A DNA stretch of 64,000 nt from Marinitoga piezophila KA3. Lineage in GTDB: Bacteria > Thermotogota > Thermotogae > Petrotogales > Petrotogaceae. The first letter of the stretch is position 1, and every line of letters starts with the position of its first letter. Below the pieces are notes generated by a model, which was given only the letters and a program-made list of their open reading frames with translations, made no database searches and was not told the DNA's origin. Location of the stretch: contig NC_016751.1 in the NCBI RefSeq assembly GCF_000255135.1, forward strand, positions 372,001-436,000, in the 5' to 3' direction. Shown here piece after piece: positions 21,367 to 28,518 of the stretch. A program made the position numbers and the translations under genes.

Positions 21367-21605
21367 TTTAAGCATATAGGTGGCTATTTTTAATTTTTTA
21401 TTTTAAAAGCTATAAATAGGATTTTGAGATTGCTATAAAATATTTATTTATAACTAACATTCTACATAAATAGTCACAATTTTTCTGACAATTTATTATA
21501 ATAAATATATTTTTACAAAATAGAAAAGTGTTGATAATATAAACGCAATAATCATTGATTATAATATCAATGTAATTTGGAAGGCTCAAAATCCTGAAGA
21601 AAGGA

Positions 21606-21655
21606 GAGTCTTGTTGTAGCATAAGTGTATTATGTTGCGACAAGACTCTTTTTTT
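21606..21655 (+). ncRNA. Long terminator hairpin; end of a possible small RNA or attenuated leader
   Basis: GAGTCTTGT at 21606 and ACAAGACTC at 21640-21648 begin a continuous 19-bp stem (three G-T wobbles) with loop GTGTA, followed by seven T. No open frame leads into it and hppA has its own terminator about 250 bases earlier. It therefore ends a separate short transcript, perhaps starting near TATAAT at 21560, though no -35 is convincing. The family is not recognised. Confidence 0.5.
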
Positions 21656-22057
21656 ATTATATACACCAAAACCGAAAGGAGATGATATTTTAGAAAATAT
21701 TATTAAATAAAAAATTTAAATCCGGATTTTAAAGGCTCTAACAGCAAAAGATAGCTTTTTATTTTTTCATCTACAATTTTATGAACGAGCCTTGTTATAT
21801 TCCCTCCTCCACAAAGGGAATGGAATTCAAAGAGAAAAATCATTAAAATCCAAAGACTTATACTGCAACAAAATATTCTTGAGCTTATTTTTTTCAACAT
21901 TTCAAATGAATTTTAAAAAAGTCTTGTTTTCAAAAAAACTCAAATATTTTCAAGTCTCGAGCGTTGAGAAGAGACTTTCAACAGCAAATAAAACTACAAT
22001 GTATTTTTAAATCCGGAAAATTAGCTTAATACTAAAAATTGTGGAGGAGGGAATAGT
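21656..22057 (+). promoter_or_regulatory. 400-base non-coding leader with a perfect anti-ribosome-binding-site element
   Basis: No credible gene lies here. The 17 bases at 21798-21814 (TATTCCCTCCTCCACAA) are the exact reverse complement of 22039-22055, the ribosome binding site region of the DUF2828 gene. Other local structure: AAGGCTC (21731-21737) can pair with GAGCCTT (21787-21793), and AAGTCTC/GAGACTT form a hairpin at 21952-21977. AAATCCGGA occurs at both ends (21717 and 22009). It may be a structured 5' leader that hides the ribosome binding site, or a separate RNA acting on it. Confidence 0.5.
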
Positions 22058-23521
22058 ATGAATAAAAATTTCATGGAAGCATTAAAAGAAGAAGGAAACG
22101 TATATTACACAGGAAATGGAGCATTGAGTTTAAAAAATAGCGGAAATAGTTTAGTTGATTTCTTTTACAGATGTGGGATTTTAATGAACCAGCCAAAAAG
22201 ATTTGAAGAATTATTCCTTAATGCATTTGCAGAAGATAAAGAAAAAGCTATAAAAATATTATTTTACTCAAGGGATGTAAGAGGCGGTCAGGGAGTAAGA
22301 AGAACATTTAGACATATATTAAAAAAGTTAGGAAATCTATACCCTGAAATAGCAGTGCAGATAATAAAATATGTACCAGAATATGGAAGATGGGACGATT
22401 TATATGCCTTTGTTGGAACAAAGGTAGAAACAGAAGCATTTGAATTTATGTATAAACAAATAATAGAAGATGTAAAAAACTATAAGGATAACAAGCCAAT
22501 AAGTCTATTGGCAAAATGGTTAAAGTCCGAAAACACAAGTTCTAAACACTCTGTAAAACTTGCCAAAATAACCAGAAAATATTTTAAAATGGACTCAAAA
22601 ACATATAGAAAAATGTTGTCTGAATTAAGAAAATATATAAAAATAGTAGAAAGAGATATGAGCGAAAACAAATGGGATAACATTGAATATGAAATAGTCC
22701 CATCCCGGGCAATGAAAAAATATCACAGAGCATTTTATAAACATGATGCTGAAAGATATGAAAAATATCTTGAAGAAGTAAAAAATAACAAAAAGAAAAT
22801 AAACGCAGGGACATTATATCCCCATGATATAGTAAAAATGGTATTAAAGGAAGAAAATGAAACTGCAGAAATGCTATGGAAAAATCTACCTGACTATGGA
22901 ATTGAAGAAGATGCCATAGCAGTAGTGGATACATCGGGATCAATGTACGGATGTGGCGAAAGTTTGATCCCAATAACAGTAGCAGTTTCATTGGGAATAT
23001 ACTTTGCTGAAAGAAATAAAGGGAAATTTAAAAATTACTTTATAACCTTCTCCGAAAAACCTGAATTACCGGAAATAAAAGGAGAAACATTATACGAAAA
23101 AGTCCAGACATTATCCCAGGCATATTGGGATGCGAATACAAATATAATAAAAGTATTTGAATTAATATTAGAAACTGCCAAAAAAGGCGGATATACTATA
23201 GAAGATATACCTGAAAAAATATACATAATATCTGATATGCAGTTTGATATGGCTGTATCAGACAATAGCAAAACAAACTTTGAAGCAATAAAAGAAATGT
23301 ACGAAAAAGCAGGATACCCAATGCCACAACTAATATTCTGGAATGTAAGTAGTTATGGAAATGATGTTCCTGTTAAATTCGATGAAAATGGAACTGCATT
23401 AATATCAGGATATAATCCAGTAATATTAAAATACATATTGACTGGAAAAGACATAAATCCATACGAAATAATGGAAAATGTAATAAACTCTGAAAGATAT
23501 AAAAATATACATATAAACTAA
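22058..23521 (+). CDS. DUF2828 / vWA-domain protein, Ro60 (TROVE)-like architecture
   Basis: This 487-residue protein resembles the DUF2828 family. The N-terminal helical solenoid contains NSLVDFFYRCG, ILFYSRDVRGGQGVRRTFR, PEYGRWDDLYAF and LLAKWLKSENTSSK. The C-terminal von Willebrand A domain has a complete MIDAS start, VVDTSGSMYG (about residues 291-300), then ITFSEKPEL and YIISDMQFDMA. A helical ring followed by a vWA domain is also the layout of the RNA-binding protein Ro60, so RNA binding is a reasonable but unproven guess. GTGGAGGAGGG precedes the start and is complementary to an upstream leader element. It is a single-gene unit with its own terminator. Confidence 0.7.
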   Translation: MNKNFMEALKEEGNVYYTGNGALSLKNSGNSLVDFFYRCGILMNQPKRFEELFLNAFAEDKEKAIKILFYSRDVRGGQGVRRTFRHILKKLGNLYPEIAVQIIKYVPEYGRWDDLYAFVGTKVETEAFEFMYKQIIEDVKNYKDNKPISLLAKWLKSENTSSKHSVKLAKITRKYFKMDSKTYRKMLSELRKYIKIVERDMSENKWDNIEYEIVPSRAMKKYHRAFYKHDAERYEKYLEEVKNNKKKINAGTLYPHDIVKMVLKEENETAEMLWKNLPDYGIEEDAIAVVDTSGSMYGCGESLIPITVAVSLGIYFAERNKGKFKNYFITFSEKPELPEIKGETLYEKVQTLSQAYWDANTNIIKVFELILETAKKGGYTIEDIPEKIYIISDMQFDMAVSDNSKTNFEAIKEMYEKAGYPMPQLIFWNVSSYGNDVPVKFDENGTALISGYNPVILKYILTGKDINPYEIMENVINSERYKNIHIN

Positions 23522-23999: not shown

Positions 24000-25721
24000 A
24001 TCCGAATATCACTACTCTCTGAAAGAGATAGAAACAATCCCATTCAACGTTTAATACTTTTTTAAATAACCAATTATATCCGAATATCACTACTCTCTGA
24101 AAGAGATAGAAACAATCTTTTCTATATACTTTGCACCAACCTTTATATTGCCAATCCGAATATCACTACTCTCTGAAAGAGATAGAAACAGCGTAACGCT
24201 GTTTTCTGTAACCCGTCTTGCTTTTTACAAATCCGAATATCACTACTCTCTGAAAGAGATAGAAACTCGTTGCCCTTTCTGAGAATAACCAGAAAAAACC
24301 ACTTTAATCCGAATATCACTACTCTCTGAAAGAGATAGAAACACATTCTTTATCTTGACTGTCTTTACCTTCATCATAACTATCCGAATATCACTACTCT
24401 CTGAAAGAGATAGAAACTCTTTTCAACTTCTGCTAAATTGTGAGCTAAGTTTCGTTCTATCCGAATATCACTACTCTCTGAAAGAGATAGAAACTCTTCT
24501 TCCAATTCTTTTAATTCTTTTTTGTATTGCTTTAAATCCGAATATCACTACTCTCTGAAAGAGATAGAAACAATAAATTCTACACCATATGGTTTTTTCA
24601 TTTTACCTAATAATCCGAATATCACTACTCTCTGAAAGAGATAGAAACAGTATTTATTACCTGTCTTTTATGCGTTTTATTGTACTTTAATCCGAATATC
24701 ACTACTCTCTGAAAGAGATAGAAACTTTGATTTTTAATTGTAATATGTAGAACAATCTTTATTCTGATCCGAATATCACTACTCTCTGAAAGAGATAGAA
24801 ACATATCTAACAACATAACCTTTAATTAAACCACTATTCTTTTATCCGAATATCACTACTCTCTGAAAGAGATAGAAACTTCCAGCTTTTCAATGTGTGG
24901 GAATATTATATACTCCCACTCATCCGAATATCACTACTCTCTGAAAGAGATAGAAACAGTATATAATACTCCCAATCGTAACCGACAAAAATTTTACATC
25001 CGAATATCACTACTCTCTGAAAGAGATAGAAACAAATATTGAAATAACTATAATAAGACTCTTGTAAACACCAATCCGAATATCACTACTCTCTGAAAGA
25101 GATAGAAACAATATTATTCTACCTAACCTTTCACCTTCTATTCTATCTCATCCGAATATCACTACTCTCTGAAAGAGATAGAAACATGAGGTGGAACATG
25201 CCACCTCAAAAAATTATATCATATAAATCCGAATATCACTACTCTCTGAAAGAGATAGAAACAATGCTTGATATGCATCTTCCCAACTATTATATTTAAT
25301 CTATCCGAATATCACTACTCTCTGAAAGAGATAGAAACTGTTGAATCACTAACTCAGCGCCAGTTATGCCGTCGAAGTATCCGAATATCACTACTCTCTG
25401 AAAGAGATAGAAACGAATTACTTCTCCTCTGGCCTTTTTGCGAACCCCATGATGTATCCGAATATCACTACTCTCTGAAAGAGATAGAAACGTTTATCTA
25501 TTTCTTCAACCATTAAATTGATTATTGCATCATCCGAATATCACTACTCTCTGAAAGAGATAGAAACCGTTTTTAAACAACAAACCTCTACCAGTGCGAT
25601 TAAAAACTATCCGAATATCACTACTCTCTGAAAGAGATAGAAACTTTGATAGTGTAGTATAATCAATATCACGTTGAAGATGTTTATTCGAATATCACTA
25701 CTCTCTGAAAGAGATAGAAAG
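24000..25721 (+). CRISPR. CRISPR array 1, 23 repeats and 22 spacers
   Basis: A 36-bp repeat begins ATCCGAATATCAC and ends GAGATAGAAAC. Repeats start at 24000, 24078, 24154, 24231, 24307, 24382, 24459, 24536, 24613, 24690, 24767, 24844, 24922, 24998, 25074, 25150, 25227, 25303, 25379, 25456, 25532, 25609 and 25686. Spacers are 39-42 bases. The last repeat is degenerate (position 3 C to T, position 36 C to G), marking the trailer end. All repeats have C at position 11. The crRNA 5' tag would be AUAGAAAC, a type III-like handle, with Cas6 (34075-34896) as likely processor. Confidence 0.98.
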
Positions 25722-25749
25722 CTCCTGCATTAAAAGCAGGAGCTTTTTT
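25721..25749 (+). terminator. Terminator of array 1
   Basis: GCTCCTGC pairs with GCAGGAGC around ATTAAAA, followed by six T. The stem core CTCCTGC/GCAGGAG is shared with the terminators of arrays 2 and 3. The first G is also the last base of the final repeat. Confidence 0.92.
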
Positions 25750-25793
25750 ATCTTTTAATCACCAAAAACTATTTTAAATTTCTCCTATAAATA

Positions 25794-25822
25794 TTGACAT
25801 AATAATTTCATTATGTTAAAAT
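25794..25822 (+). promoter_or_regulatory. Promoter of the CAPP-cas1-cas2-ago operon
   Basis: TTGACA at 25794-25799, 17-base spacer, TAAAAT at 25817-25822. It lies between the array terminator and the first gene, so the adaptation operon is transcribed separately from the array. Confidence 0.75.
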
Positions 25823-25860
25823 TATAATATATACTTCAAATTTATTTAGTTGGTGATAAT

Positions 25861-27501
25861 ATGAATTTTAAAGAATTAGCTTTTAAGGCTGAAGAAGATT
25901 TTGACTTTGAAAAAGCTATTGAATATTATAAAAAAGCATTTAATGAATTAACAATTAATGATGATTCATTAATTCGCTATGCAAATTTATTATTTGATTT
26001 TCAAAAATTTGAAGAAGCAGAACCAATTTTTGAAAAAATAGTTTCTGAAATTAATGATTCGGAGTATATGAGTAAACTTGCTATTATTTATGAAGAAAAT
26101 AATAAATTTGAAAAAGCATTGAAAATATACAAAGAATTAGGAATAGAATCTAAAGTGAAAGAGCTCTCAGATAAAATCGAATTAAAAGCACCATCTCAAA
26201 ATGCAATAAAACGTTTTATGACGCTTTTTTCAGGAAGAGAAGATGTTTTTTCTATTCAATATGAAGGTGGATACAGACCAATTAGAAGACCTTTGAATTT
26301 TCATGATATAAAAGATCATTTTTCTGGCAAAAAAACTTTAGGAATATATCTTTTAAAAAAGAATGATACTGTTAAATTTGCAGCATATGATATAGATATA
26401 AAAAAGCATTATTTAAATAGAGAAGATAAATTTGTATATGAAGAAAATAGTAAAAAAGTTGCTAAACGATTATCCAGAGAATTGAATTTGGAAAATATAA
26501 TTCATTATTTTGAATTTACTGGCAATAGAGGATATCATATATGGATATTTTTTGATATTCCTGTTTCTGCTTATAAAATAAAATATATTATGGAGAAAAT
26601 TTTGGATAGGATTGAATTAGAAGAAGGTATCGATGTTGAAATATTCCCAAAACAAACATCTTTAAATGGTGGATTAGGGAATTTAATAAAAGTGCCTCTT
26701 GGTGTTCATAAAAAGACAGGTAAAAAATGTTTATTTGTGGATAATGATTTTAATGTCATTGAAAATCAAATTGAATTTCTGAATAATATAAAAGAAAATA
26801 AGGCAACTGAAATTGATAAACTTTTTAGAGAAATATTCAATGAAAATGATTATGATGATTTTAATGTTACATATAAAAAAAGAACAACCAGTTCTAAAAA
26901 TTCTGCATCTAAAAAAATTAAAAGTTCAATTAGAAAAACGCTGCCAAAAAGTAATAAGAATATTTTTACCCAAATGATTGAAGGATGCCATATTTTAAAA
27001 CAAATTAACGAAAAGATAGAAAAAGAGGCATATATTACAGAAGAGGAAGAAATGATTTTTATAAAATCACTTGCTAATCTTGAAAATTCAAAAAAGTTTA
27101 TAGAAATGAAATTATCTCAAACAATTAATTTTTCAAAAAAACGTATTGATATGATTATAAAACAAAGTTTAGGCGTTCCAATAACCTGTGAAGAGATACG
27201 GAAAATTATATTGAATAAAGATATATCGTTGAGTCTTGAAAACTGCACATGTAAATTTCAGGGTAATTATAATTCACCATATGCAATTGTAGAAAATATA
27301 GAAGAAATGTTTCTTGATAAGATTGACATAAATGACATTGCTAAAAAGATTGTTGAAAAAAATGCTGAAAAGTTTGAAATAGAAAAAGAAATTAAAAATT
27401 TAAAAAGAATGATAGCTAAAAAGATGGGCGATTCAAAAGAGTTAAGAACCGAAATAGGTACAATAAAAAGATTTGGCGATGATATAGAAATTATATTATA
27501 A
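25861..27501 (+). CDS. CRISPR-associated primase-polymerase (CAPP): TPR + AEP primase + Cys-rich C-terminal domain
   Basis: This 546-residue protein has TPR-like helix pairs at about 1-110. An archaeo-eukaryotic primase domain follows with the metal-binding pair Asp177/Asp179 (YDIDIKKHY), GNRGYHIWIFFD with His226, and IDVEIFPKQ with Asp258 followed by NLIKVPLGVHKKTG. The C-terminal helical domain has Cys376, Cys443, Cys462 and Cys464, a PriCT/PriL-like set that may hold Zn or Fe-S. Enzymes of this type from Marinitoga were described as CAPPs with DNA and RNA synthesis activity and a proposed role in spacer acquisition. It is first in the operon with cas1, 12 bases away. Confidence 0.9.
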   Translation: MNFKELAFKAEEDFDFEKAIEYYKKAFNELTINDDSLIRYANLLFDFQKFEEAEPIFEKIVSEINDSEYMSKLAIIYEENNKFEKALKIYKELGIESKVKELSDKIELKAPSQNAIKRFMTLFSGREDVFSIQYEGGYRPIRRPLNFHDIKDHFSGKKTLGIYLLKKNDTVKFAAYDIDIKKHYLNREDKFVYEENSKKVAKRLSRELNLENIIHYFEFTGNRGYHIWIFFDIPVSAYKIKYIMEKILDRIELEEGIDVEIFPKQTSLNGGLGNLIKVPLGVHKKTGKKCLFVDNDFNVIENQIEFLNNIKENKATEIDKLFREIFNENDYDDFNVTYKKRTTSSKNSASKKIKSSIRKTLPKSNKNIFTQMIEGCHILKQINEKIEKEAYITEEEEMIFIKSLANLENSKKFIEMKLSQTINFSKKRIDMIIKQSLGVPITCEEIRKIILNKDISLSLENCTCKFQGNYNSPYAIVENIEEMFLDKIDINDIAKKIVEKNAEKFEIEKEIKNLKRMIAKKMGDSKELRTEIGTIKRFGDDIEIIL

Positions 27502-27513
27502 GGAGATTTTTAA

Positions 27514-28518
27514 ATGATTTTGTATATCACAGAACAAGGAGCTGTGCTTTCTAAAAGAGAAGGACGACTTGTTATTTCTAAAGAAAATTCTATTATTTCA
27601 GAGATTCCGTTAAATAAAATTGAAAAGATTAATTTAATGGGGAATATTTCCCTTACTACTCCAATTATTAGCTATTTTCTTGATCATGAAATAGAAGTTA
27701 TTTTTATGACGAAAACTGGAAAATACAGAGGAAAATTATATACCGATGAATACAGAAATGTGTTATTAAGATTAAAACAATACGAACGCTCTTATGATGA
27801 AAAATTCAAACTGAAAATTTCAAAAGCAATAGTTAAAGGAAAACTGAAAAATTCATATGATTTTTTGATTAATAGAAGTAGATATTTACCTAAAGGAACT
27901 TTAAGCAAGGAAATTGCTTCGATTAGAAAGATTATAGAAAAAGTTGATAAAGGAAAAAATATTGATGAAGTAAGAGGATTTGAAGGAATTGGTTCTAAAT
28001 ATTATTTTGAAGGATTTAAAAAATTAATAAAAAACGAAAATTTCAAATTTGAAAAACGCATTATGCACCCACCAAGAGATCCTGTAAATGCCATGCTATC
28101 ATTTGGATACTATCTTTTGTATAACGAAGTTATGGCAGCTATTAATATCGTTGGATTAGATCCATATTTTGGCAATCTTCATACCATAGAAATATCAAAA
28201 AAATCACTTTTATTTGATCTGGTTGAAGAATTTAGAAATATCATAATAGACAACTTTATACTTAAATTAATTAATAGAAATGAAATAAGCAAAGATGATT
28301 TCAATAAAAAAGATGAAAATATTATATATTTTACAGATGAGGGAATGAAGAAATTTATATCCAAATACGAAGAGATGATATCTCAAAAAATGCGATATCA
28401 TTTAGACGAAGAAACAAATTATATTAGAACAATATTTCAAAAGCAGGCAAGGCATTATGCCAGAGTTGTTATTGGAGATGAAGAGGAATATATTCCATTT
28501 TATAGGGTGGGGAATTAA
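27514..28518 (+). CDS. cas1: CRISPR integrase Cas1
   Basis: This 334-residue protein has the N-terminal beta domain (MILYITEQGAVLSKREGRLVI) and C-terminal helical catalytic domain. Metal ligands are Glu157 in FEGIGSKYYF, His223 in GLDPYFGNLHT and Asp235/Glu238 in FDLVEEFR. Cas1 with Cas2 inserts spacers at the leader end. AAGGAG precedes the start. It is not fused to a reverse transcriptase or to Cas6. All catalytic residues are present, so it should be active. Confidence 0.97.
   Translation: MILYITEQGAVLSKREGRLVISKENSIISEIPLNKIEKINLMGNISLTTPIISYFLDHEIEVIFMTKTGKYRGKLYTDEYRNVLLRLKQYERSYDEKFKLKISKAIVKGKLKNSYDFLINRSRYLPKGTLSKEIASIRKIIEKVDKGKNIDEVRGFEGIGSKYYFEGFKKLIKNENFKFEKRIMHPPRDPVNAMLSFGYYLLYNEVMAAINIVGLDPYFGNLHTIEISKKSLLFDLVEEFRNIIIDNFILKLINRNEISKDDFNKKDENIIYFTDEGMKKFISKYEEMISQKMRYHLDEETNYIRTIFQKQARHYARVVIGDEEEYIPFYRVGN

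Follow-up and report, generated by a model that had tools for sequence, protein, structure and literature searches.

A predicted Shine-Dalgarno clamp joined to Y-RNA-like modules in the leader of a Ro60-like gene of Marinitoga piezophila

In a stretch of 64,000 nucleotides from Marinitoga piezophila KA3 (contig NC_016751.1, positions 372,001 to 436,000; hereafter the window, numbered from its first letter), a gene for a Ro60-like protein is preceded by a leader in which a strand exactly complementary to the Shine-Dalgarno (SD) region directly follows a Y-RNA-like module. From our point of view, with a probability of roughly 60%, this is a regulatory leader of the Ro60/Y-RNA type, in which the modules would be the likely partners of the protein, the anti-SD strand would act as a default-off clamp, and the gene would likely be autoregulated.

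The clamp and its counterparts in the genus

The strand TATTCCCTCCTCCACAA (21798-21814, plus strand), directly 3' of the 3' arm of the module that we call M2, is over 17 nt the exact reverse complement of TTGTGGAGGAGGGAATA (22039-22055, plus strand), with 224 bases between the two arms and no extension of the pairing at either end. The downstream arm contains the SD sequence GGAGGAGG of the gene, whose start codon ATG lies at 22058. A sequence-only reading of this DNA had noticed a 17-base exact inverted match to the ribosome binding site and had judged it improbable by chance, and both statements were borne out: none of 2000 dinucleotide-shuffled versions of the 400 upstream bases reached a length of 17 (longest complement of the SD region, 12), and when SD complements were ranked across the 65 window genes with an SD sequence plus five other loci of the family, 17 came first and 13 next, none of the 64 control genes equalling it. 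Both the minimum free energy (MFE) and the ensemble folds pair the SD with 21798-21814, and as the predicted probability of this pairing in the folded leader is 1.0 between 37 and 75 °C, a closed resting state is expected. The fold prediction further indicates that clamp and folded modules can coexist.

The gene is found in three of the seven genomes of the genus, namely that of the window and two others (G008 and G005), whose orthologues share 65-66% protein identity with the window protein. The leaders of these relatives read ...GAGTCTTGTC-TATACTCCTCTGTG and ...GAGTCTTGTTTATACTCCTCTGTG, with the SD region CACAGAGGAGG, and each contains a 10-nt anti-SD match that about 1% of shuffles attain. 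It occupies the identical place relative to the preceding hairpin, with letters that differ from those of the window, and its two arms lie about 83 bases apart on one strand; in all three genomes the anti-SD strand starts a few bases after the 3' arm of a module. Four consecutive base pairs of the clamp are changed on both sides relative to the window with the pairing kept, so that the covariation in other Marinitoga that had been put forward as a check was found, in what amounts to one independent comparison. This conserved complementarity with compensatory changes in the two gene-carrying relatives, as expected of a cis-acting anti-SD leader, supports the earlier reading of a cis switch. A second 10-nt clamp over the start codon of the relatives (TCTCTACTCA with TGAGTAGAGA) is suggestive at most, as 7% of shuffles reach 10 nt and the window is without it.

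Y-RNA-like modules and a protein with the Ro60 fold

Module M2 (21730..21798, plus strand; stem AAGGCTC/GAGCCTT, motif ACAGCA) was recognised with 40.4 bits (E 2.4e-6) by a covariance model that had been built from 33 short modules found beside DUF2828 genes elsewhere, none of them from Marinitoga, and it is also the top match of this model in the whole genome (E 3.7e-5). A second module, M3 (21851..21930, plus strand; motif ACTGCA), lies in the loop between the anti-SD and SD strands and scores 24.6 bits (E 0.0076). The copies of the relatives are likewise detected by the model, all other matches in the seven genomes having E values of at least 0.6. The module has the form 5'-AAGRCNC-n-ACAGCA...GNGYCTTG-3'; the hairpin ahead of the anti-SD strand reads AAGGCTC-TA-ACAGCA...GAGCCTT-GTT in the window and AAGACTC-AT-CAGCA...GAGTCTT-GT in the relatives, and all five matches of the module pattern in the seven genomes fall into the leader of the Ro60-like gene (two in the window, two in G005, one in G008; reversed control, 0). 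The two modules of the window thus support the earlier suggestion that the leader could encode the RNA partner of the protein.

Used as queries, the three Marinitoga proteins retrieved 80 further DUF2828 loci from a genome collection and three from viral contigs, an earlier search of genome contigs with a single protein query having given no matches; phage and plasmid records supplied additional loci. In the 450-base upstream regions of 83 DUF2828 genes, a simple finder for ACAGCA or closely similar motifs flanked by a stem returned 160 modules in 56 loci, versus 2 in antisense and 0-3 in shuffles. The modules, with the consensus 5'-AAGRCRY-n-ACAGCA ... GYGYCTTG-3' and with stem pairs that vary with compensation, occur in Bacillota, Akkermansia, phages and other genomes, often in tandem arrays, and many loci, above all in Ruminococcus, carry 3-5 consecutive copies. 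When 62 other DUF2828 loci (405 kb) were scanned with the covariance model on both strands at E values up to 0.5, all 76 matches fell on the gene strand in 40 of the loci, mostly just upstream of the DUF2828 gene and sometimes just downstream, although some of these loci had fed the model and not all are therefore independent, as the phage, plasmid and Marinitoga matches are. The strand bias, the blind matches in Marinitoga and the shuffles are free of any bias from the stem requirement of the finder, and the modules are linked exclusively to the DUF2828 family.

The Ro60-like gene itself (22058..23521, plus strand) encodes a protein of 487 amino acids that matches the Pfam families DUF2828 and DUF7788 (vWA) as well as PHROG 850, annotated as RNA-binding protein. 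Its AlphaFold2 model (predicted local distance difference test 88.9, predicted template modelling score 0.88) displays the alpha-solenoid ring plus vWA domain that define the Ro60/TROVE fold, and it matches Ro60 in Foldseek (E 5e-9), Ro60 with RNA (VIA Z 24.0 across 412 residues) and the Rsr protein of Deinococcus radiodurans (Z 13.8). By sequence, Pfam reported DUF7788 and DUF2828 alone and not the TROVE family, and a sequence search of the PDB with the window protein found no Ro60 chains. Since the predicted structure matches both Ro60 with RNA and Rsr, the model supports a protein that is Ro60-like by fold and stands outside the TROVE sequence family, and the label "Ro60-like" given by the sequence-only reading is thereby upheld. 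Compared with Ro60 and Rsr (TROVE plus vWA; PDB 2i91, 2nvo), the protein hence shares the two-part fold, but differs in its DUF2828/DUF7788 composition and shows 10-18% identity in the structural alignments. Ro-like RNA-binding proteins of phages (PHROG 850; mycobacteriophages, Listeria phages) belong to the same family and modules adjoin their genes, whereas in mycobacteriophages, unlike in Marinitoga, the modules are placed 3' of the gene.

With an end-closing stem, a conserved internal-loop motif and a position beside a Ro-family gene, the modules have features of a Y RNA in the wide sense. The bacterial Y RNA YrlA is bound by the Ro protein Rsr at its basal stem and by PNPase at its tRNA-like part (PMC8394870). 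In YrlA (RF02553), too, a stem joins the 5' and 3' ends and the RNA is encoded beside a Ro-family gene, and its tRNA-mimic core is shared with some long modules of DUF2828 loci; its stem motif, however, has the consensus AAUGC versus ACAGCA in the modules, and the Marinitoga modules differ from it in being without a tRNA mimic and in standing in tandem inside the leader of the gene. No YrlA match above the gathering score was found in the window, and none in the leader at E<=5. Several long modules elsewhere enclose a tRNA-like domain, such as the T-arm GCAGGTTCGAATCCTGC enclosed by AAGTCAGC...GCTGACTTG in Ruminococcus, and one module of an Oscillospiraceae array scores as tRNA. The Rfam YrlA model also matches inside long modules of mycobacteriophages and an Enterococcus phage, at 36-48 bits against a cut-off of 69, the range for long phage modules overall being 28-48 bits. 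In two phage loci (L122 1430-1800, L117 3520-3650) the long modules enclose a permuted tRNA-like core of the YrlA type. Judged from sequence, the modules appear to form a type of Y RNA that is particular to the DUF2828 branch of Ro proteins, with a long form carrying the tRNA mimic and a short form, the latter being the only one in Marinitoga. None of the papers searched links DUF2828 to Y RNAs. For Y RNAs of mycobacteriophages, Chen et al. 2014 is reportedly the work cited, and the long form may in part have been described before.

For the Listeria phage CKA15, the authors of a transcriptome study suggested that Y RNAs lie close to the Rsr-like gene CKA15_055 and reported a very abundant non-coding transcript at 26,236-26,727 of OR088597 (L132 2637-3128), near the DUF2828 gene (PMC12282133). 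We find that CKA15_055 is a DUF2828 relative and that LP-048 (L116), a close relative of CKA15, carries three modules in the gap before its DUF2828 gene, in a stretch that is 97.5% identical in CKA15. The modules of CKA15 (about 25,285-25,555) lie about 0.7 kb from the abundant region, which is upstream of them, and the module model gave no match in the LP-048 equivalent of that region. As the abundant region with its printed coordinates differs from the module stretch, we rejected the transcriptome as direct evidence for expression of the modules.

Possible function of the leader and alternative explanations

We envisage that the leader would make or present Y-RNA-type modules for the Ro60-like protein from the same transcript, perhaps also releasing them as separate RNAs, while the anti-SD strand behind M2 would fold back on the SD and keep translation off by default. 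As the anti-SD strand and a module are contiguous, whether the clamp stays closed could be set by protein binding to that module or by processing of the module, and remodelling of the leader would lift the block on translation. Whether by opening or by closing the clamp, the gene would thus probably regulate its translation by way of its RNA partner. Autoregulatory leaders that sequester the SD are known from ribosomal-protein operons. The Marinitoga leader is alike in that the likely RNA ligand of the protein stands in its own mRNA beside a sequestered SD, but the putative ligand is a Y-RNA-like module instead of an rRNA mimic. The wider claim, that the widespread DUF2828 branch of Ro60 proteins goes with tandem arrays of a hitherto unclassified type of Y RNA, and that in Marinitoga such partner RNAs also serve as the translational switch of the protein, we regard as tentative and as falling somewhat short of even odds.

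Upstream of the modules, the leader contains a candidate promoter by consensus match (TTTACA-17-TAATAT, 21512..21540, plus strand), which is weaker than the perfect TTGACA-17-TATAAT that the relatives show at the equivalent place, upstream of the whole element. It is followed by a short stem (AAGGCTC/GAGTCTT, 21581..21612, plus strand), a possible antiterminator, and by an intrinsic terminator-like hairpin with a T tail (21604..21650, plus strand), detected by a scan and with equivalents in the relatives, that might act as an attenuator. Because the 3' arm of the short stem overlaps the 5' arm of the terminator in all three leaders, this layout suggests a second, transcriptional checkpoint. 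A match to SpF01_sRNA in one locus (L010) that overlaps the promoter-terminator hairpin reaches 40 bits, below the cut-off of 55, and was taken as chance.

The strongest competitor, although we give it clearly less weight, is a plain translational clamp in cis with modules that are Y-RNA genes sharing the transcript and having no role in control. The conservation of the clamp speaks for it, and most DUF2828 loci have modules without an anti-SD strand, so the two features are separable; however, the anti-SD strand follows the module 3' arm within a few bases in three of three genomes, and elsewhere the last module ends at most 20 bases from the start codon, beside the SD, in 18 of the 55 module-bearing loci, which suggests coupling and would be in keeping with translation being generally linked to module occupancy. 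Rather improbable is a cis-acting device responsive to a small molecule (a riboswitch) or to heat (a thermometer). Marinitoga belongs to a thermophilic group, and the long-range sequestration of the SD together with an upstream terminator would suit such a device, but the restriction of the module to one gene family is unlike a metabolite riboswitch, Rfam searches of the window, the leader (E<=5) and the relatives found no riboswitch, and a thermometer was rejected with the clamp being predicted stable at 75 °C. That a small RNA from the region 21798-21814 silences the gene in trans, as the sequence-only reading had also contemplated, is very unlikely: the complementarity is exact and the sequence upstream offers a candidate promoter and a terminator, yet the scan shows no terminator directly 3' of the anti-SD strand, which would pair in cis first, being on the same strand and probably the same transcript, as it also is on the same strand in the relatives, and we found no specific support for the proposal. 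A functionless match that arose by chance or by recent inverted duplication of the ribosome binding site region is equally improbable and already disfavoured, for although the leader is AT-rich and the gene occurs in three genomes of the genus only, the shuffles never produced such a match and the relatives keep the pairing with different sequence.

Several observations nevertheless weigh against the preferred reading of an autoregulatory Ro60/Y-RNA-type leader. The covariation of the clamp is essentially a single comparison because the two relatives are themselves closely related (91% identity between their AAA genes), their clamp helix is shorter than that of the window (10 versus 17 nt), and a survey of all DUF2828 loci found no anti-SD strand in other DUF2828 genes, so the clamp is not general. 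Folding of M3 in the window leader costs about 5 kcal/mol relative to the MFE at 37 °C, no tRNA-mimic effector domain was found in the Marinitoga modules (Rfam on the leader; ARAGORN on the window, which returned no tRNA), and the Thermotogota relatives of another family (L011, L012) yielded no modules. In addition, the count of covarying stem pairs is partly by construction, as the finder required a stem.

The regulation and the RNA partners of bacterial Ro proteins outside a few TROVE model systems are largely open questions. The module offers a sequence signature by which to recognise the likely RNA partners in a large and poorly annotated Ro60 branch, which spans hundreds of phages and many gut bacteria, and the Marinitoga leader would represent a compact case of a Ro protein controlled by its own RNA partner. 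If true, this would amount to feedback control of a Ro ribonucleoprotein through its Y RNA.

Other DUF2828 loci and neighbouring genes

In many Ruminococcus loci (L033-L104) the 3' arm of the final module (GCTGACTTG) runs directly into the SD (AAAGGAG), a junction at which the binding sites of protein and ribosome could possibly overlap. In one locus (L029 1897-2948) the DUF2828 gene is preceded by an array of about 1 kb with at least seven modules, one of them with a tRNA-like domain that Rfam assigns to tRNA. In five further loci (L064, L066, L109, L127, L128), mostly phages or phage-like elements, DUF2828 genes and modules lie in or beside dense tRNA arrays.

In G008 and G005, the DUF2828 gene comes after an operon that encodes a fused beta/beta' homologue of RNA polymerase (more than 1000 amino acids, with a NADFDGDTMAVYFP motif), a protein of unknown function and an RtcR-like AAA protein. 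Such operons are present at L026 8313-15684 (minus strand), L023 433-6709, L024 8581-13803 and L025 1673-8011. In G008, the AAA protein has GAFTDA in place of GAFTGA, and the operon includes an additional Cas_APE2256-type CRISPR-associated protein. The genome of the window has no close relative of the AAA protein; there, the region downstream of the Ro60-like gene (24010-28518) holds a CRISPR array and, after it, the genes for a CRISPR-associated primase-polymerase (NF040561) and for Cas1.
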